Shown here piece by piece: positions 2,287 to 24,402 of a stretch of DNA of 33,993 nt; position 1 is the first letter of the stretch, and the number at the start of each line of letters is the position of its first letter. Under the pieces are notes generated by a model. The model was not told the origin of the DNA. It saw only the letters and a program-made list of their open reading frames with translations, and made no database searches. Location of the stretch: positions 1-33,993 of the IMG/VR virus record IMGVR_UViG_3300047550_000290. One strand, written 5' to 3'. Source of the stretch: a virus. A program made the translations under genes and the position numbers.

Positions 2287-2865
2287 ATGACTGACACTGC
2301 TGTTGTTCCATTTATGCTCAAGGGTGATGCACTTGTTGAGTACGTAAATGAGAAGATGGAGCTTATTAATAGAAATGAGCTGACACGCACTGAAATGATC
2401 AAGGACGCAGGCTATGTGTACGACAACGGTAATGCTATGTACACACAGTTCTACACTGAGCTACTCAATGCCAAGGGTGTTGTACCTGTGACTAACAACG
2501 ACATTGCTGATCAAGAGTATGAAGATCTAAGTGTTGATAAGCGTAACCTCTATGATCGCATTGATGAATGGAGTGGTGCTAAGTGGACGCATGAGGAGCT
2601 GATTGAGTTCATTGATGAACTTGAGGACATTGGTATTGATACAGCGTCTGAGTTTGATGATGCCTATGAATGGGAGCATGATGGTTGGGCGTCTATGGCT
2701 GAGAAAGAGTTCGCTGAGTATTGGTGCATTGAGGTTCTTGATGCACAGATTCCAGAGTGTGTACTCGCTGCTGTAGATTGGCAAGATGTGTGGGATCACA
2801 ACCTACGTTATGACTTCTGCTATATTGAGACTGCTAACGGTACATTCTTCTTTCGTAACAACTAA
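2287..2865 (+). CDS. Putative AbrB-like/ArdA-like fusion, antirestriction candidate
   Basis: A 192-residue, strongly acidic protein that appears to have two parts. Residues about 10-66 (LKGDALVEYVNE...DAGYVYDNGNAMY...FYTELLNAKG) match the pattern of the cyanobacterial AbrB-like domain, with its GYV...G...FY.ALL.AKG core. Residues about 90-192 resemble the C-terminal part of ArdA antirestriction proteins: FDDAYEWEH, then a helix FAEYW, then IPECVLAAVDWQDVWDHNLRYDF, ending in FFFRNN (ArdA proteins typically end ...yiDye.fardl...y....vFr). ArdA mimics B-form DNA and blocks type I restriction enzymes. Position in the early cluster fits an anti-host-defence role, as with T7 Ocr. Both domain calls come from pattern recall and need a profile search; the N-terminal ArdA domain appears to be missing. 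Confidence 0.6.
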   Translation: MTDTAVVPFMLKGDALVEYVNEKMELINRNELTRTEMIKDAGYVYDNGNAMYTQFYTELLNAKGVVPVTNNDIADQEYEDLSVDKRNLYDRIDEWSGAKWTHEELIEFIDELEDIGIDTASEFDDAYEWEHDGWASMAEKEFAEYWCIEVLDAQIPECVLAAVDWQDVWDHNLRYDFCYIETANGTFFFRNN

Positions 2866-3023
2866 TGATGTTCAGAGTTATTCTTGATTCAGTAGACAAT
2901 CCTGGTAAGTTTACATTTATAACGGTTGATGGTGCTAAGGACTTAGATGATTGCCTAAATCACATCCGCACTAAGTTCTCTAGTGAGTTTGTTATTGATC
3001 AAATTCAGGAAATTACGGAATGA
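2865..3023 (+). CDS. Small hypothetical early protein
   Basis: A 52-residue protein starting MMFRVILDSVDNPG, of unknown function. The ATG shares one base with the stop of the ArdA-like gene (TAATG), and the stop overlaps the next ATG. The pattern is a beta strand, a turn, a second strand and then a helix, a common fold outline among tiny cyanophage ORFs. A second ATG follows directly and could be the real start. Confidence 0.6.
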   Translation: MMFRVILDSVDNPGKFTFITVDGAKDLDDCLNHIRTKFSSEFVIDQIQEITE

Positions 3024-3181
3024 CTATGACTGAGACCAACATTATCCTTGCTGTGATTGGCATGGTTGGGTTGTTCGCTACGGCTACAATCTATCAACGT
3101 GCTAATCGCATCACAAGTGTGTATTATGCTAACAAGGTTAATCGTGACCTTATCAACCTGAACAAGCGAGAGTTTAACTGA
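3020..3181 (+). CDS. Small single-pass membrane protein
   Basis: A 53-residue protein with one hydrophobic segment at about residues 8-24 (ILAVIGMVGLFATATIY), followed by a basic tail with several Arg and Lys. This suggests an N-out, C-in topology in the cytoplasmic membrane. Function is unknown; a small early membrane protein could interfere with host transport or block superinfection, but nothing here shows that. Start and stop overlap both neighbours by one to four bases. Confidence 0.65.
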   Translation: MTMTETNIILAVIGMVGLFATATIYQRANRITSVYYANKVNRDLINLNKREFN

Positions 3182-3369
3182 TGACAATTATCCACGACAC
3201 GGCTATTAAGGTTGATGTTTACCCTGATGAGTTCAAGCCCCTCATGAAGGCAGTAAAGTATGCTTTAGTGTGTGATGATTCACGCAAGGTATTTAATGAG
3301 GAAGAGTGGTCTACGCTTAATGCGTGGCTTGATGACTTTTGTGACATTGCACTTAACGAGGCTGTATGA
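3181..3369 (+). CDS. Small acidic early protein
   Basis: A 62-residue protein, MTIIHDTAIKVDVYPDEF...NEAV, of unknown function. It is acidic and predicted mostly helical, with an EEEWSTLNAWLDDF segment near the end. The start shares one base with the upstream stop, and the stop (TGA) overlaps the next ATG. Confidence 0.65.
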   Translation: MTIIHDTAIKVDVYPDEFKPLMKAVKYALVCDDSRKVFNEEEWSTLNAWLDDFCDIALNEAV

Positions 3370-9709: not shown

Positions 9710-10228
9710 ATGAACCTAATCTTCGACTTAGAAACTGACGGTCTCTACGATGATGCTACCAAGATCCACTGTATCGGCATCTATGATCTCGACACTAATC
9801 AGACGCTTGTCTTCAATGATGAAGGCAGTGAGCAACCAATTACAAAAGGTGTTCAGCTACTAGAAGATGCCTGTTGCCTTATTGGCCACAATATCATTGG
9901 CTACGATATTCCTGTGCTCCGCAAGCTCTATCCTTGGTTTACCCCCGGTCCTAGGATTATTGATACTCTGGTTCTCAGTCGTATTTATCACGCTGATATG
10001 CTGAAGACAGACCAGAAGCGTAAGTGGAAGAATATGCCACCACGGCTTCAAGGTCGCCACTCACTTGAATCCTATGGATACAGGCTCGGCGTTTACAAAG
10101 GAGAGTTTGGTAAGGATACTGACTGGAAGAACTGGTCACAAGAGATGCAGGATTACTGCATACAAGACGTAAAGGTAACACAGAAGTTATGGCAACATTT
10201 CCACCCATACCTGACTTCATCCAACTAG
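9710..10228 (+). CDS. DNA polymerase, 3'-5' exonuclease part
   Basis: Proofreading half of a T7 gp5-type family A polymerase, 172 residues. Catalytic residues are visible: Asp6 and Glu8 in FDLETDG (T7 Asp5/Glu7), Asp66 in HNIIGYD (T7 Asp65), and Asp153 in YCIQDVKVT (T7 Asp174), plus IDTLVLSRIYH. The ORF stops shortly after the last exonuclease motif, while T7 continues in one chain. The polymerase part lies in the -1 frame and overlaps by 40 bases. So the enzyme is made as two chains, or joined by frameshifting, or the sequence has an indel near 10190-10200. Confidence 0.9.
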   Translation: MNLIFDLETDGLYDDATKIHCIGIYDLDTNQTLVFNDEGSEQPITKGVQLLEDACCLIGHNIIGYDIPVLRKLYPWFTPGPRIIDTLVLSRIYHADMLKTDQKRKWKNMPPRLQGRHSLESYGYRLGVYKGEFGKDTDWKNWSQEMQDYCIQDVKVTQKLWQHFHPYLTSSN

Positions 10229-11469
10229 AACATGACGTTGCAACCATCCTCACAGAACAAGAGATACATGGGTGGTACTTTGATGAAAGAGCTGCATGGG
10301 AACTTGAATCGACTCTCCGAAGAGAGCTTGAAACACTTACTCAGCTACTACGCAACAGGTACCCTCTCATTAAAGATCGAGAGTTTACTCCTAAAAGAGT
10401 TAACCGAACAACGGGATACGTCGCAGGCGCTCCTCTCACTAAACTGAAGGAGTTCAACCCTGGTAGTCGTGATCACATTGCATGGGTCATGAAGAACCAC
10501 CATGGTTGGGTGCCAGATAAAGAGACAGCTAGTGGCAAGACTGCCATTGACGAGACTGTACTCAAGGATATAGGAACCGAAGAAGCTCTTCAATTCTTGC
10601 GTTGCCTTGAGTTAACCAAAAGCCTCGGTATGTTGTCTGAAGGCAACAACGCCTGGTTGAAGTTAGTCAAAAACAATCGAATACACCATCACTGTTCAGT
10701 CAGTACGAACACGCACCGATGTGCTCACCGTAATCCAAACCTTGCGCAGGTCCCGAGTGACTTATCATTCAGAAAACTCTTTACCGCGTCGCCTTCCATG
10801 GTTATGGTCGGTGCTGACTTAGCTGGTATTGAGTTGCGGATGTTGGCTCACTATTTAGCTAGGTACGATGGCGGCAGGTATGGAGACGTACTTCTTAATG
10901 GAGACATTCACCAAGAAAACGCCGACAAGATAGGTATATCACGCCGATTAGTTAAGACTGTAACTTATGCCTTCCTCTACGGAGCAGGCGACCAAAAGAT
11001 AGGACTTAGTTATGACCAAAGCCTTTCCCCGAACAAGGCAAAAGAAAAAGGGGCTGAAATCCGAAGTGCTTATGTTGCTGCCATTGACGGCTTGGGTGAT
11101 CTTCTTGCCGCTGTTCGTGCAGCGGGTGACAGAGGCTTTGTCAAGTCGATAGATGGACGTAAGATCGCAGTAGATAGCCCCCACAAGGCACTCAACTACC
11201 TTTTGCAGTCAGGGGCAGGTGTGGTTGCAAAGCGGTGGATGGTCATCGCTAATCAGAACTTCCCTACCATTGACAACGACTATCTCAGTCACACTCATCA
11301 ACTTGCATTCATCCACGACGAACTACAGTGGGAATGCCTGCCAGCTTATGCAGAAGATCTCAAGAACCATCTTGAGTTATGCGCTGCGCTAGCTGGCGAA
11401 TACTACAACCTCCGAATCCCCATTGCTGCTGAGGGGAAAATCGGCTCCACCTGGGCAGATGTACACTAA
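10189..11469 (+). CDS. DNA polymerase, polymerase part (T7 gp5-like)
   Basis: Replicative polymerase domain, 426 residues. It begins ATFPPIPDF, aligning with FPPEIDF just after the exonuclease domain in T7. Motif A is VGADLAGIELR with Asp210 (T7 Asp475). The O-helix KTVTYAFLYGAGD has Lys256 and Tyr260, the latter at the T7 Tyr526 / E. coli position 762. Motif C is IHDE with Asp377 (T7 Asp654). The thumb segment that binds thioredoxin in T7 is clearly shorter: only about 200 residues precede motif A here. A plausible ribosome site for the ATG at 10189 is weak (AAAGG about 14 bases upstream). The stop overlaps the next gene (TAATG). Confidence 0.93.
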   Translation: MATFPPIPDFIQLEHDVATILTEQEIHGWYFDERAAWELESTLRRELETLTQLLRNRYPLIKDREFTPKRVNRTTGYVAGAPLTKLKEFNPGSRDHIAWVMKNHHGWVPDKETASGKTAIDETVLKDIGTEEALQFLRCLELTKSLGMLSEGNNAWLKLVKNNRIHHHCSVSTNTHRCAHRNPNLAQVPSDLSFRKLFTASPSMVMVGADLAGIELRMLAHYLARYDGGRYGDVLLNGDIHQENADKIGISRRLVKTVTYAFLYGAGDQKIGLSYDQSLSPNKAKEKGAEIRSAYVAAIDGLGDLLAAVRAAGDRGFVKSIDGRKIAVDSPHKALNYLLQSGAGVVAKRWMVIANQNFPTIDNDYLSHTHQLAFIHDELQWECLPAYAEDLKNHLELCAALAGEYYNLRIPIAAEGKIGSTWADVH

Positions 11470-12753: not shown

Positions 12754-12992
12754 ACTTTCATCTTGGCAACGCAATTAAATACATTTGCCGTGCCGGTTAC
12801 AAAGGCATCGACGGCAAAAGCATGACAGACGCTTACATCAAAGATCTAACTAAAGCAATCCACTATCTTCAAAATGAGCTTGAGCAAGAAATCCTTCATC
12901 AGCGAACAGGCAAAGGAGTTCAGGGCTGGTTTCCAAGTGATGAACAGTACGACGCCAGCTTCACGGACTATGCAGCGGACTTTGATCGTTGA
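12669..12992 (+). CDS. DUF3310 (SaV-like) protein, gp1.7-type candidate
   Basis: A 107-residue protein with the DUF3310 signature: an aromatic-rich N-terminus (PEYYRRGNIQVWDFI), LNFHLGNAIKYICRAGYKG, and a helix DLTKAIHYLQNELE. As I recall, this family includes T7 gp1.7, a nucleotide kinase, so a role in dTMP/dGMP phosphorylation is plausible, but the function is not shown here. Its position between exonuclease and the MazG-like gene supports nucleotide metabolism. It overlaps the upstream gene by 85 bases and the MazG-like gene by 119 bases. Confidence 0.78.
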   Translation: MANSNSCGPEYYRRGNIQVWDFIRDQGLNFHLGNAIKYICRAGYKGIDGKSMTDAYIKDLTKAIHYLQNELEQEILHQRTGKGVQGWFPSDEQYDASFTDYAADFDR

Positions 12993-13263
12993 GGAGTTCA
13001 AAGAGTTCCTAGATGCTGAGAATCAACTAATCATGGGACTGACTATCAACGCTGCTGACTGCCTTAAAGAGTTAGCTGATCTAGTTTATGTCTGCTATCA
13101 ATACGCAGAGAACCTTAAGTGGGATCTAGATGAAGCATTGAATCGTGTTCATCAAAGCAACATGAGTAAACTTGATGAAAACGGTCAACCTATTCGACGT
13201 GGGGATGGTAAGATCCTCAAGGGACCTAACTACCAAGAACCTAAACTCACTGATCTTGTCTAA
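12874..13263 (+). CDS. MazG-like nucleotide pyrophosphohydrolase
   Basis: A 129-residue all-alpha NTP pyrophosphohydrolase of the MazG/PRA-PH group, thought to hydrolyse nucleoside triphosphates or alter alarmone levels. Metal-binding residues: EEFKEF (about residues 41-46, the EExxE-type helix), then DCLKELADLVYV with E-x-x-D about 25 residues on, then the typical DLDEALNRVHQSNMSKL and GKILKGPNYQEP ending. The early start at 12874 is preferred because the segment EQAKEFRAGFQV corresponds to the family's first helix; an ATG at 12940 would delete it. It is far smaller than MazG of cyanomyoviruses. Its 5' end overlaps the DUF3310 gene by 119 bases. Confidence 0.85.
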   Translation: MSLSKKSFISEQAKEFRAGFQVMNSTTPASRTMQRTLIVEEFKEFLDAENQLIMGLTINAADCLKELADLVYVCYQYAENLKWDLDEALNRVHQSNMSKLDENGQPIRRGDGKILKGPNYQEPKLTDLV

Positions 13264-13265
13264 TA

Positions 13266-14654
13266 ATGTCTAATACCACCAAAGAACTTATCGCACGTAC
13301 TGGCCGTGTACAGAGTTGGATTGATGATCCAACATCCCGTCTTCCCGTCAGTTGTACTGTCTTCGTTGTCGAAGACTCCATCGAGGGACCTAATGGCATC
13401 GAAGCATCATGGCGTTTTGTTTCACACGCTCTACGCTACGGAGCTGGCGTGGCTGTCCATCTATCCAAACTCCGACCCAAAGGCTCTGAAAACAGCAAAG
13501 GACTTGTGGCTAGCGGCCCAGTATCCTTTGGAAAGATCTACTCAACCCTTAACGAAATCCTGAGGCGTGGTGGTGTTTATAAAAATGGGGCTGTGGTTCT
13601 ACATCTGGATCTCAACCATCCTGATGTGCTTGAGTTTATTACTGCTGACCGTGCTGACCTACCTTGGGTTAAGCGTTGCGTCAACATCAATAAACATTGG
13701 TGGAATGTCACTACTCAAGAAATACGAGAAGCACTCCTCCAAGGTATCCGTAAGGGAGACATCTGGCTGAACAAAACTAAGGTTGACAAAAATGGAAATC
13801 GAATCCGGGGTAACGTATGCCTGGAAGTCTATCTCCCAAGCCGGGGCACCTGTCTACTTCAACATGTCAACCTCGGCGGATGTGAACTCCATGACATTCA
13901 AAGTGCATTTGTCCACGGAATGTCCCAATTGTGCTCACTTCACGGCAAAACAAATGTTGGAGAAAGCGGAGAATACCTCCCTTCAGAGACAGATCGCCAA
14001 GTCGGTCTCGGAATGCTGGGACTTGCCAACCTTCTAGCACGTTGTGGTGTCACTTACAAACAATTCGGTGAGGCACTGGATGATATTCTGAACTATCGGA
14101 TGGCTCAGACTCCTGCCCACATTCTTGCAGCTGAGATCAACGCAGGTATCCAAGCAGCAGCGCATACAGCACGTCTCAACAACATGGATCGTGCCTTTGC
14201 TATTGCCCCTACAGCAAGCTGCAGCTACCGCTATAAGGATCTGAATGGGTATACTACTTGCCCTGAGATCGCTCCTCCTATTGCCCGCCAAGTTGACCGT
14301 GACAGTGGTACATTTGGTGTCCAGAGCTTTGATTACGGTCCTGTTGAGATCGCATCTGAAGTTGGCTGGGAAGACTACAAGCGTGTAGCAGATGGCATTG
14401 TATCTCTGCTCGATAAGACGGGACTTCTTCATGGATACTCTTTTAACTCGTGGAGTGATGTGATCACTTACGATGAAGCATTCATTGAAGAGTGGCTGGA
14501 TAGCCCCCAAACTTCTCTTTATTACTCCCTTCAGGTAATGGGTGATGTTCAGGACAAATCCAGCGCATATGCAGCATTGGATGAAACTGAAGTCGATGAT
14601 TACCTGGAGTCTATTCTAAACGACCCTGCTCCTGATTGTAATTGCGGCGAATGA
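13266..14654 (+). CDS. nrdA: Class I ribonucleotide reductase, alpha subunit
   Basis: Reduces ribonucleotides to deoxyribonucleotides. At 462 residues it is much shorter than E. coli NrdA (761) and lacks the N-terminal ATP-cone, so the usual activity-site regulation should be absent. Active-site residues: Cys30 (PVSCTV, E. coli Cys225); Asn183-Cys185-Glu187 in NVCLE (Asn437/Cys439/Glu441); Cys196 as the likely second redox cysteine; PTASCS; radical-transfer pair Tyr419-Tyr420 in SLYYS (Tyr730/731); and C-terminal CNC. This P-SSP7-type enzyme was long annotated as class II. The beta subunit gene directly downstream, overlapping by four bases, and the YY pair support class I. Confidence 0.93.
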   Translation: MSNTTKELIARTGRVQSWIDDPTSRLPVSCTVFVVEDSIEGPNGIEASWRFVSHALRYGAGVAVHLSKLRPKGSENSKGLVASGPVSFGKIYSTLNEILRRGGVYKNGAVVLHLDLNHPDVLEFITADRADLPWVKRCVNINKHWWNVTTQEIREALLQGIRKGDIWLNKTKVDKNGNRIRGNVCLEVYLPSRGTCLLQHVNLGGCELHDIQSAFVHGMSQLCSLHGKTNVGESGEYLPSETDRQVGLGMLGLANLLARCGVTYKQFGEALDDILNYRMAQTPAHILAAEINAGIQAAAHTARLNNMDRAFAIAPTASCSYRYKDLNGYTTCPEIAPPIARQVDRDSGTFGVQSFDYGPVEIASEVGWEDYKRVADGIVSLLDKTGLLHGYSFNSWSDVITYDEAFIEEWLDSPQTSLYYSLQVMGDVQDKSSAYAALDETEVDDYLESILNDPAPDCNCGE

Positions 14655-15361
14655 ACCCCTACGAAAAACTACAAAGTCGAAAAAGGAAGTGGTCTCCTGT
14701 ACAGACCACAGCTGGCAAGCTTGCTGAGGGTGCGGAAGAAACTATCTTTCGTGCTCTTGCTATGCGTCATATGGAACTACCTGTAGGTGACTTTATTGAA
14801 GCATCGCTTTCTGAAATTCCAGTACTATCGCAAGACCTACTCCGATCTAATATCAAAGACGAAGAAAACCACGACTTGGCTCTCGGTTACATCGCCAATG
14901 CTCTCGGTGTTGATCCTAAAGCTGAAGCGGAAGCCAAGCGAATCAGAGAAGCGTGGATTGCGCATCCTGATCACACGGTCCTCAAAGCACTGGTTGCCGA
15001 ACGTGCGCTTTTCTTCGTTCTACTCCCGTTCTTTCGATTTAATGGTGATGCTGGTCTCAGGACCGTATCCGCTGACATCAGCCGAGATGAGCAAGTCCAT
15101 GTGGCTGCCAACTCTCTTGTCTGCAGGGAACTTGGATATGAACCATCTCCATCTCTCGACAAGCTCAGGAAAGCGACGATCAATTGGGTTATGACGCCTT
15201 TGAAATCGTCCACTAACAAATATTTGGACAAAAAATTTTGGCTGGATGCAAGTGATCGCCTGATGTACGAAGGTAAGGCTCCTGAACTTTCTGACACGAA
15301 ACGAGCACGTATGCCTGCCTTCTTTGAACATGCAAACCCCAATCTCCCTCAATACGCTTGA
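14651..15361 (+). CDS. nrdB: Class I ribonucleotide reductase, beta subunit, lacking the radical Tyr
   Basis: Ferritin-like di-metal subunit that generates the radical for the alpha subunit. 236 residues against 376 in E. coli. Two ExxH motifs hold likely metal ligands: Glu71/His74 in DEENH and Glu147/His150 in RDEQVH, with Glu117 (ERALFF) between them; the first ligand is Glu30 or Glu42. The residue four past His74, where E. coli has radical Tyr122, is Leu78. Tyr80 is near but out of register. A Tyr near the C-terminus (QYA) may serve radical transfer. The ATG at 14651 overlaps the nrdA stop. The family link matches the overlooked beta subunit reported for phage P-SSP7. Confidence 0.88.
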   Translation: MNPYEKLQSRKRKWSPVQTTAGKLAEGAEETIFRALAMRHMELPVGDFIEASLSEIPVLSQDLLRSNIKDEENHDLALGYIANALGVDPKAEAEAKRIREAWIAHPDHTVLKALVAERALFFVLLPFFRFNGDAGLRTVSADISRDEQVHVAANSLVCRELGYEPSPSLDKLRKATINWVMTPLKSSTNKYLDKKFWLDASDRLMYEGKAPELSDTKRARMPAFFEHANPNLPQYA

Positions 15362-21270: not shown

Positions 21271-21486
21271 ATGCCTAACATTGCAACTGGTCGGTATTCA
21301 AGCCGACAAATGGAAACGGGTCTTAGTGTACCCGAACATGATTACATCAGCATTACCAATGATGCCAACGGTAACCCTACAACTGTTGTCTATCGTGCTG
21401 GTGGATCTAGCGGCCAAATTGTTTCTACCGTCAACATGAGTTATGATGGTAATGGCTACCTCGTTAGTGTTACCAGAATCTCGTAA
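21271..21486 (+). CDS. Small strand-rich protein upstream of the fibres
   Basis: A 71-residue protein, [19 protein letters not shown]..., with beta strands and two DANGN/YDGNGY turns, ending LVSVTRIS. The YDGNGYL repeat-like pattern is typical of structural proteins. It shares a base with the next gene start (TAATG). Function unknown; position suggests a virion or fibre-associated part. The 57 bases before it contain no gene. Confidence 0.6.
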
Positions 21487-22043
21487 TGTTCCGCCTCAAT
21501 CCGATCACTGGTGTACTTGCCTTTGTTCCTGAGTATGCTCCGCCTGGCCCTCAAGGAGAAGCTGGAGAGCCTGGAGAACCGGGATTAGATGGTGAGACAG
21601 GCCCTCAAGGTGAGACAGGCCCTCAAGGCCCACCTGGGCCCAAAGGAGAGCCTGGTGCTCCTGGTAAAGATGGGGCAGATGGCCTTGGTATTCTGAGTGG
21701 TGTTAATCCTCCATCTCCGTTTATTGGAGAGACTGGACAATTCTATATTGATTACCATAGTTGGTTAATCTACGGACCTAAGTCCGCTGATGGTTGGCCG
21801 CAAGGTGTATCATTGATAGGTCCTCAAGGTCGTCCTGGACAAGATGGTTTGGATGGTTTAGATGGTGAGCCTGGTCCTCAAGGGGAACGTGGTCTGCCTG
21901 GTCCTCAAGGTCCCGTTGGTCCTCAAGGGAAACCCGGTTTACCTGGACCGCCTGGACCATCAGGAAGAGTTCAATATGTAGGGGATTCTAATCAACCTCA
22001 GAAAGGTTGGGTATCTGGTGGAATTACAGTTCAACATAACTAA
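21486..22043 (+). CDS. Collagen-like fibre protein
   Basis: A 185-residue protein with two uninterrupted runs of 16 Gly-X-Y triplets (residues 21-68 and 112-159), which should fold as trimeric collagen-like rods. Between them is a compact segment, [23 protein letters not shown], a pattern often seen in phage fibre proteins. The N-terminal [15 protein letters not shown] resembles the start of the next protein and may anchor the fibre to the virion. The end, [12 protein letters not shown], is a likely trimer tip. Located upstream of the capsid gene rather than after the internal proteins, so it could be a head or tail accessory fibre. Confidence 0.85.
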
Positions 22044-22048
22044 AAACA

Positions 22049-23209
22049 ATGCCATATAAACTTAATCCATTTACAAATAATTTTGATCAAGTAAATACTG
22101 GCATTCCAGGCCCAACAGGTCCCCAAGGTCCTGCAGGCCCAACAGGTGCTACTGGAGCTACAGGTGCTACTGGTCCTGCAGGTGTGGTTGCTGCAACAGC
22201 ACCAATCTCCTATGACAGCGGCACACAGACAGTTAGTACAAGCATGGCTACTAACCGTCTACTTGGTAGAAGTACTGCTGGTACGGGTGTTGCAGAAGAA
22301 ATTAGTGTGGGCACTGGTCTATCTCTAAGTGGAGGTACACTAAGTAACACACAATCAGGTACAGATCTCTCCTATACTGCTAGTAGTAGGCTGCTTGAAT
22401 CAAGCACTGGTAATGATGTTACCTTGCCTTTGTTTACTAGTTCTCTAGATGGTTTAACTCCTTCTTCTGGTGGTGGTACTAGTAACTTCTTAAGGGCTGA
22501 TGGTACATGGGCTGCTCCGCCTAGTAGCGGTTTTACTGGTGGAACGCTGACAAGCAACCTGACGCTTGCGGCTGGCACCACTTCGTTGTCACCGCTGACC
22601 ATGCAGTCAGGCACCAACCTGACGACAGCAACGGCTGGCGCAGTCGAATACGACGGCAACGTTATCTACACAACGCCTAGCGCCACAGCTGGCCGAGGGT
22701 TTTCCCCTTCTGTTTTGACCTACAGGCTAAATAGTGCATTAGCCGGTGGCACTGGCACATCAGCCCAAAGCGTTTTTGGAAAAGGCGTCACCGTAGCTGG
22801 ATCTACGGTTTATTTGTTTGAGGCTGTGTATAGATTTTCCAGAGCTTCCGGGACTACTTCTCATAGCTTTGGTATTTCATTTGGCGGGACAGCTACGCTC
22901 AACAATATTGCCTACCAGTACCTACGTGTTGGTGTAGATACAAGCAGCACAACTATTGGCACTCCATCGCTAGGGTATCGAGTAGTGGCTACCAATATAA
23001 ATATTCTTAGTGCTATTACAACTGCAGCTTATAGTATTTCTGTGCAGATTGTGGGATCTTTTAGCGTCAACGCAAGTGGTACTTTTATCCCTCAGTACAC
23101 TCTTTCTGCCAACCCTGGGGCAGCGTACTCAACGGAAACTGGAAGCTACATCAAAATATATCCAGTTGGAGCCTCTGGCGCTGACACCTCAATCGGTGCT
23201 TGGGCATAG
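22049..23209 (+). CDS. Fibre protein with collagen-like neck and beta-rich tip
   Basis: 386 residues. The N-terminus MPYKLNPFTNNFDQVN parallels the upstream fibre protein. It is followed by nine Gly-X-Y triplets (residues 18-44), including three GAT repeats, then Ser/Thr/Gly-rich strands with the familiar fibre motif TSNFLRADGTWAAPP (around residues 148-162). The C-terminal 200 residues form a beta-sandwich-like domain (AVYRFSRASGTTSHSFGISFGG...) likely to bind the host surface. From about 22540 the base composition shifts to more GC-rich codons, suggesting a domain swap. Five bases separate it from the upstream fibre gene. Confidence 0.82.
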   Translation: MPYKLNPFTNNFDQVNTGIPGPTGPQGPAGPTGATGATGATGPAGVVAATAPISYDSGTQTVSTSMATNRLLGRSTAGTGVAEEISVGTGLSLSGGTLSNTQSGTDLSYTASSRLLESSTGNDVTLPLFTSSLDGLTPSSGGGTSNFLRADGTWAAPPSSGFTGGTLTSNLTLAAGTTSLSPLTMQSGTNLTTATAGAVEYDGNVIYTTPSATAGRGFSPSVLTYRLNSALAGGTGTSAQSVFGKGVTVAGSTVYLFEAVYRFSRASGTTSHSFGISFGGTATLNNIAYQYLRVGVDTSSTTIGTPSLGYRVVATNINILSAITTAAYSISVQIVGSFSVNASGTFIPQYTLSANPGAAYSTETGSYIKIYPVGASGADTSIGAWA

Positions 23210-23382: not shown

Positions 23383-24402
23383 GTGGCTAACACTCTTGTT
23401 ACTCCTTCAGGTCGGATTAATAATACTAGTTCGACCCCTCTTGCGCTTGGTACTGCCTATGATACCAAGTACGCAACTTATCTGAAACTGTTTTCTGGCG
23501 AAATGTTCAAGGCCTATGAAGGGGCCACTATCGCCAAAGGAACTGTGCAAAGCCGTACGCTGACTAATGGTAAGGCTATGCAGTTCATCTTCACTGGCCG
23601 TATGGAGGCTGCATACCACGAGCCCGGAACTCCTATCCTGGGTACTGGTGATCCTCCGGTGGCAGAGAAGACCATCGTCTGTGACGACCTGCTGATCAGC
23701 TCGGCATTCGTCTATGACCTTGATGAGACTCTTGCTCACTACTCGCTGCGTTCGGAGATTGCCAAGAAGATTGGTTATGCTCTGGCTGAAGCATATGACA
23801 AGAAGATCTTCCGTCAGATCGCTAAAGCTGCTCGTGAAGCTCACCCCATCACTGCTGCCCCTGGCCCTGAGCCCGGCGGTTCGGTGATCCAACTGGGTGC
23901 CAACAAAGAGTATGATGCTCAAGCCCTGGTGGATGCTTTCTTTGAAGCTGCCAGCATCATGGATGAGAAGAACCTTCCTAAGCAAGGTCGCACCGCTGTG
24001 CTGTCTCCTCGTCAGTACTATGCTCTCATCTCTCAAGTTGATAGCAACATCCTCAACCGTGACTATGGTAATGCCCAAGGCAACCTGAATAGCGGTGAAG
24101 GTCTCTATGAGATCGCTGGTATCTCTATCAAGCGTTCCAACAACCTGCCCTTCCTGGCTGGTAACGTCTCTTCCGTCAACGGTGAGAACAACGATTACTC
24201 TGGTAACTTCAGCACCCACTGCGGTCTGATCTACTACAAGGATGCTGCTGGTGTTGTGGAAGCTATTGCTCCCTCCGTGCAAACCACCTCTGGTGATGTG
24301 TCGGTGATGTACCAAGGTGACCTGATCGTTGGTCGTCTTGCTATGGGCTGCGGTACTCTGAACCCCGCTGCTGCTATTGAGCTGCAGTCGGCTCGCTCCT
24401 GA
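23383..24402 (+). CDS. Major capsid protein (T7 gp10A-like)
   Basis: Builds the icosahedral shell (HK97 fold). 339 residues (T7 gp10A has 345). Matches the T7 pattern: FSGEMFKAYEGATIAKGTVQ, FIFTGRMEAAYHEPGTPI, then LLISSAFVYDLDETLAHY, SEIAKKIGYALAEAYDK and GLIYYKDAAGVVEA. The start is GTG at 23383, giving MANTLVTPSG, with no Shine-Dalgarno, which is unusual for the most abundant virion protein. Codons end in C far more often than in neighbouring genes, consistent with high expression. A strong terminator lies two small genes downstream, as after T7 gene 10. Confidence 0.95.
   Translation: MANTLVTPSGRINNTSSTPLALGTAYDTKYATYLKLFSGEMFKAYEGATIAKGTVQSRTLTNGKAMQFIFTGRMEAAYHEPGTPILGTGDPPVAEKTIVCDDLLISSAFVYDLDETLAHYSLRSEIAKKIGYALAEAYDKKIFRQIAKAAREAHPITAAPGPEPGGSVIQLGANKEYDAQALVDAFFEAASIMDEKNLPKQGRTAVLSPRQYYALISQVDSNILNRDYGNAQGNLNSGEGLYEIAGISIKRSNNLPFLAGNVSSVNGENNDYSGNFSTHCGLIYYKDAAGVVEAIAPSVQTTSGDVSVMYQGDLIVGRLAMGCGTLNPAAAIELQSARS

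Follow-up and report, generated by a model that had tools for sequence, protein, structure and literature searches.

The small subunit (β) of the ribonucleotide reductase (RNR) of phage P-SSP7 and its relatives, the Cyano SP group, lacks the usual radical tyrosine; this feature and the metal pattern have been described, and a new class I subclass proposed (Harrison 2019, PMC6370689). The large subunits (α) of these enzymes were later placed in an ancestral class, class Ø, whose small ferritin-like partner is described as lacking an α-binding tail, carrying a Tyr at its C-terminus and having either Phe or Leu in the radical position, and whose metal is stated in the same paper to be not known (Burnim 2022, PMC9531940). 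According to that paper no class Ø β had been characterised biochemically, a 2026 preprint (PMC12918982) still terms the group biochemically uncharacterised, and our search of the open-access literature agrees with that description.

The DNA analysed here is a 33,993-base viral record (the window) from a T7-like cyanophage, with T7-type RNA polymerase, primase/helicase, portal, T7-type capsid assembly and major capsid genes in addition to ThyX and psbA. Its RNR genes, both on the + strand, are flanked by a MazG-like gene (12874-13263) and the portal gene; the 236-residue β-subunit gene (14651-15361) shares its first 4 bases with the end of the 462-residue α-subunit gene (13266-14654). The β open reading frame (ORF) begins with ATG, an alternative TTG start lying three codons upstream at 14642. 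The protein matches PHROG 6799 across residues 1-236 (E 5.9e-132) as well as 56 phage records in the phage collection, each match covering at least 80% of the query. It is the small subunit of a class Ø RNR (Cyano SP, proposed subclass If), and its gene comes immediately after that of the α-subunit. The first-pass annotation had assigned it to the P-SSP7-type group, which is borne out by 78.5% identity to the P-SSP7 β-subunit and by the same residues at eight metal-site positions, and the novel class I subclass to which it referred is indeed proposed in print (PMC6370689). Absent from that annotation was the later placement of the family in class Ø with a solved α-subunit (PMC9531940), which makes this a known kind of enzyme; with 56 phage records matching β and the kind already published, the window holds a further member and not a new one. 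The leucine at the radical site, the metal ligands, the group membership and the lack of an ATP-cone in that first description hold, while its analogy to class Ie and its suggested use of Tyr80 do not, as detailed below.

Several other genes of the phage deserve mention. The T7-like DNA polymerase is encoded by two ORFs (exonuclease, 9710-10228; polymerase, 10189-11469) with a 40-base overlap; the identical split, down to the ORF lengths (519 and 1281 bases), is seen in phage DSL-LC07, making a sequencing error unlikely. A ThyX-type thymidylate synthase (PF02511; 232-867) is a further nucleotide gene. The photosystem II D1 gene psbA (PF00124; 19758-20819) separates the gene for capsid assembly from that for the major capsid protein (23383-24402) and is followed by two collagen-repeat ORFs (21486-22043 and 22049-23209).

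The α-subunit matches that of Synechococcus phage S-CBP4 (7urg_A) over residues 1-462 with an E of 3.8e-263, and PF02867 also matches. Cys30, Cys185 and Cys196 carry the same numbers as in S-CBP4 α. By residue check, the finger loop N183-V-C185-L-E187 (13812-13826, + strand) is the class Ø motif NVCLE, reported in 30 of 35 class Ø sequences (PMC9669993). The Tyr419-Tyr420 dyad (14520-14525, + strand) corresponds to Y420-Y421 of S-CBP4 and C458-x-C460 (14637-14645, + strand) to its C-terminal CXC motif (PMC9531940), so that the class Ø combination of a YY dyad with a C-terminal CXC (or CXXC) is present. Class Ø α-subunits are short (average 412 residues) and without an ATP-cone. The first reading of the DNA had described α as ATP-cone-free, and no PF03477 match occurs in α or elsewhere in the window by a search that was positive in 12 of 14 control genomes. 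The ferritin-like gene of about 240 residues expected directly downstream in class Ø is here 236 residues long and ends Y235-A236. No NrdI gene was found in the 33,993 bases of the window, which is weak evidence since the record may be a fragment.

At the level of sequence, β is only very weakly similar to class I β-subunits. A Pfam search returned no match at E up to 1, the single NCBIfam match was weak (E 0.018) and far under the family cut-off, and a phmmer search of PDB sequences gave nothing convincing, the best hit being an unrelated sperm protein (E 0.56). When a β profile was searched against the PDB, the sole matches were the R2 chains of C. trachomatis; these were weak (E 0.27-0.32) and placed Leu78 on Phe127, which we take to be the residue at the radical position of class Ic R2, and Tyr80 on Tyr129. 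A literature search for what C. trachomatis Tyr129 does turned up no paper that mentions this residue by name.

Structure prediction gave a clearer result. The AlphaFold2 model of β, built from a 53-sequence alignment (53 of 88 selected proteins), has a pLDDT of 91.4 and a pTM of 0.86, is least confident in the C-terminal tail from residue 220 and is predicted to adopt the R2 ferritin-like fold. Its best Foldseek match is the class Ic NrdB of C. trachomatis (E 8.5e-04, probability 1.00), and with VIA-align 2 the 50 matches listed are all class I β-subunits, at Z 18.9-20.4. Classes Ia, Ib, Ic, Id and Ie are tied in this range, so the fold identifies an R2 protein and not its subclass.

Six metal ligands are predicted in β, spread over four long helices of the model (residues 29-55, 58-85, 109-131 and 134-161). 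These are Glu42 (14774-14776), Glu71 and His74 of the first EXXH motif (D70-E71-x-x-H74, 14858-14872), Glu117 (14999-15001) and Glu147 and His150 of the second EXXH motif (D146-E147-x-x-H150, 15086-15100), all on the + strand, with Asp70 and Asp146 forming the second sphere. Residue check and alignment place both motifs where they had first been read. Glu42 and Glu117 occupy the positions of E. coli Asp84 and Glu204, which we take to be metal-ligand positions; Glu42 falls on Asp84 in three of four MAFFT strategies and is misplaced in one mode, and the register of the second motif is also found by hhalign. The metal-site residues given for P-SSP7 β (E42, E71, H74, E117, E147, H150, D70 and D146; Harrison 2019, PMC6370689) are thus matched at all eight positions with identical numbers. 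The arrangement is that of class Ø, with E,E,H,E,E,H in the first sphere, D,D in the second and either Phe or Leu in the radical position.

Conservation was assessed in relatives drawn from viral contigs, genome contigs and named phages. Among the 186 loci are some partial or frameshifted copies as well as stretches that overlap on one contig; merging identical proteins gave 152 distinct rows, the window included, with none dropped. The ligands, Trp14 and Tyr235 are kept throughout, though the conservation of Asp70, Glu71 and His74 is biased by retrieval, as the patterns used to find relatives contained these three residues; positions 78 and 80 lie outside every pattern. This retention bears on the idea that β is degenerate or serves some other ferritin-like function, which its short length and invisibility to Pfam might suggest. 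Given also that the gene overlaps that of α and that P-SSP7 α and β are co-expressed (PMC6370689), we regard such a loss or change of function as very unlikely.

Among the records collected, the β match is in two pieces in the deposited genomes of S-CBP4 (KC310804), P-RSP2 and P-GSP1, and the annotated β gene of S-CBP4 is shorter, an ORF of 618 bases which stops before the C-terminal Tyr. Microcystis phage Mic1 encodes a class Ø-like β (2483-3253 of the retrieved locus) with no adjoining annotated α, its annotated neighbours being hypothetical proteins on the opposite strand. Divergent β-subunits (42-53% identical; five loci) occur in assemblies labelled Calothrix, Limnothrix, Planctomycetota, Verrucomicrobia and Chloroflexi.

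The residue four positions after His74 is Leu78 (codon CTC, 14882-14884, + strand) and not tyrosine, as had been noticed from the sequence at the outset. For comparison we used nine class I β-subunits, E. coli NrdB and NrdF and seven from cyanobacteria, all nine of which have Tyr at this position; cyanobacterial class I β-subunits were found in 8 of 39 genomes, and one that is split over two loci (L202 and L203) was excluded from the controls. In all four MAFFT strategies Leu78 sits on E. coli Tyr122, which we take to be the radical tyrosine of class I β. The offset to the E. coli residues is constant for E71, H74, L78 and Y80 in each alignment and hence leaves no gap inside the motif. Alignment by hhalign with the nine class I sequences did not extend beyond the surroundings of the second motif (probability 3-8%), so that the register of the first motif rests on MAFFT, the weak profile match and the fold. 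Across the census position 78 is Leu in 148 rows, Phe in 3 and a gap in 1, with Tyr in none. The leucine is encoded by CTC in 61 rows, CTT in 31, TTG in 28, CTG in 18 and TTA in 10, and this use of five codons is the picture that would be expected from selection on the amino acid.

Tyr80 (14888-14890, + strand), only two residues away and Tyr in 138 of the 152 rows, had been put forward as a possible substitute, in effect a displaced class Ia-like radical site, with an indel shifting it into the radical position named beforehand as the refuting test of the Leu78 reading. No such indel occurs in the four MAFFT alignments. Furthermore, position 80 is Phe in 8 rows, Met in 3, Asn in 1 and Leu in 1 (with 1 gap), and the nearest relative, 95% identical to the window protein (224/236), is among those with Phe80. 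A tree was built from 143 of the 152 rows, namely those of 225 to 262 residues without X; this selection lost one Phe78 row out of three and a single row with a residue other than Tyr at position 80. On this tree there are at least 10 changes in the Tyr80 trait and two at position 78. In the weak profile match Tyr80 pairs with Tyr129 of a class Ic R2 that itself has Phe at the radical position. Replacement in 13 of 152 rows, the nearest relative included, argues that Tyr80 is not the radical site, and a radical there is extremely improbable.

The ligand set also bears on the metal-free class Ie, to which the first-pass annotation had likened the protein. Class Ie enzymes have lost carboxylate ligands and keep a tyrosine that becomes DOPA. 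The window β has every carboxylate, so it is not of class Ie, and the tyrosine on which that class depends is missing from it. Three of the carboxylates are lacking in class Ie (PMC6370689), and the sole point in favour of a metal-free enzyme with a modified Tyr is that the usual radical tyrosine is absent; we give this reading practically no credence. Classes Ia and Ib, characterised by Tyr at the His+4 position of the first motif and a first-sphere Asp, fit no better, as β has L78 and E42.

Since β retains all its ligands and has no Tyr in the radical position, an oxidant centred on the metals is the simplest reading, and a probable one. The six ligands would bind two metal ions, and given Leu at the radical site the one-electron oxidant would be kept on these metals rather than on a tyrosine. 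It could then pass by way of Trp14 and the C-terminal Tyr235 to Tyr420/Tyr419 of α and on to Cys185, allowing α to reduce ribonucleotides for phage DNA. Trp14 (14690-14692, + strand) falls on E. coli Trp48 in all four alignments and is Trp in 151 of 152 rows (1 gap). Trp48 and Tyr356 are, we assume, the radical-transfer residues of the E. coli protein. Tyr235 (15353-15355, + strand) is Tyr in 147 rows, the other 5 being gaps, but in the MAFFT alignments it is Leu232 that pairs with Tyr356, Tyr235 standing three residues off. The offset is probably caused by the FFE motif anchoring the alignments, and the equivalence of Tyr235 and Tyr356 is a published proposal (PMC9531940) and not a product of the present alignments. 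This F-F-E (residues 224-226, 15320-15328) is invariant in the β-subunits and resembles the NFFE found in several class I β-subunits ahead of their C-terminal Tyr; the Tyr lies 9 residues past the Glu in proteins of the window type versus 6 in those class I proteins.

The family, the fold, the ligand set, the conserved Leu78 and the α-subunit motifs are best explained as a whole by a class Ø β-subunit with a metal-held oxidant, to which we assign a probability of about 0.8. The very weak sequence similarity to class I β-subunits and a fold that picks no subclass count against this explanation. As to the identity of the oxidant, class Ic enzymes combine a first-sphere Glu with a residue other than Tyr (PMC8463856), and the published rule for class Ic, a first-sphere Glu with Phe, Leu or Val in the radical position (PMC6370689), describes E42 and L78. 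This combination favours Mn(IV)/Fe(III), although Asp70 takes the place of the class Ic second-sphere Glu (position 7 of the published pattern) and the Cyano SP clade stands apart from class Ic in all the trees of Harrison 2019 (PMC6370689); we put a class Ic-like cofactor at roughly even odds.

A dimanganese oxidant, as in a class Id-like enzyme with an Mn2(III/IV) cluster formed with superoxide, may be considered more tentatively. The first-sphere ligands of P-SSP7 fit both Ic and Id, and the Id α group is likewise without an ATP-cone (PMC6370689); class Id is described as needing no NrdI (PMC8463856), and none was found in the window. Class Id, however, conserves a Tyr that is required for activity and has a lysine, K71, placed four residues beyond its first Glu, E67 (PMC8463856), positions that are Leu78 (no Tyr in 152 rows) and Gly46 in the window β. 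These differences speak against a plain class Id enzyme, and we consider a class Id-like centre possible but doubtful. More speculative still is the thought that class Ø β-subunits use a cofactor unlike those of the five class I types characterised so far, such as a cluster whose properties are set by Asp70 together with Leu78; this seems rather unlikely. Were it so, in a β without the usual α-binding tail, oxidant storage and subunit coupling would differ from those of every known RNR. The window gene itself adds little to this question. The census offers constraints for purification work: Leu, rarely Phe, appears to be under selection at position 78 across the family, and the apparent dispensability of Tyr80 suggests that effort is best directed at the metals.

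Compared with known systems, the window β shows no difference of substance from the P-SSP7 (Cyano SP) β-subunit, which shares its metal-site residues, its missing radical Tyr and its place next to α. The window α likewise resembles the class Ø RNR of S-CBP4 (7urg) over its full length, with NVCLE, YY and CXC common to both, and differs in nothing of substance beyond its length (462 vs 470 residues). The Mn/Fe class Ic R2 of Chlamydia trachomatis has in common with the window β a first-sphere Glu, a non-Tyr radical site and the fold, but is not confidently detected by sequence and differs in having Phe127 rather than Leu78, Glu119 rather than Asp70 and 346 rather than 236 residues. The Mn2 class Id R2 of Flavobacterium johnsoniae has the same first-sphere ligands and a known metal-centred oxidant of the kind that the window β would use, while it keeps the Tyr and Lys71 that are replaced in the phage protein by Leu78 and Gly46.
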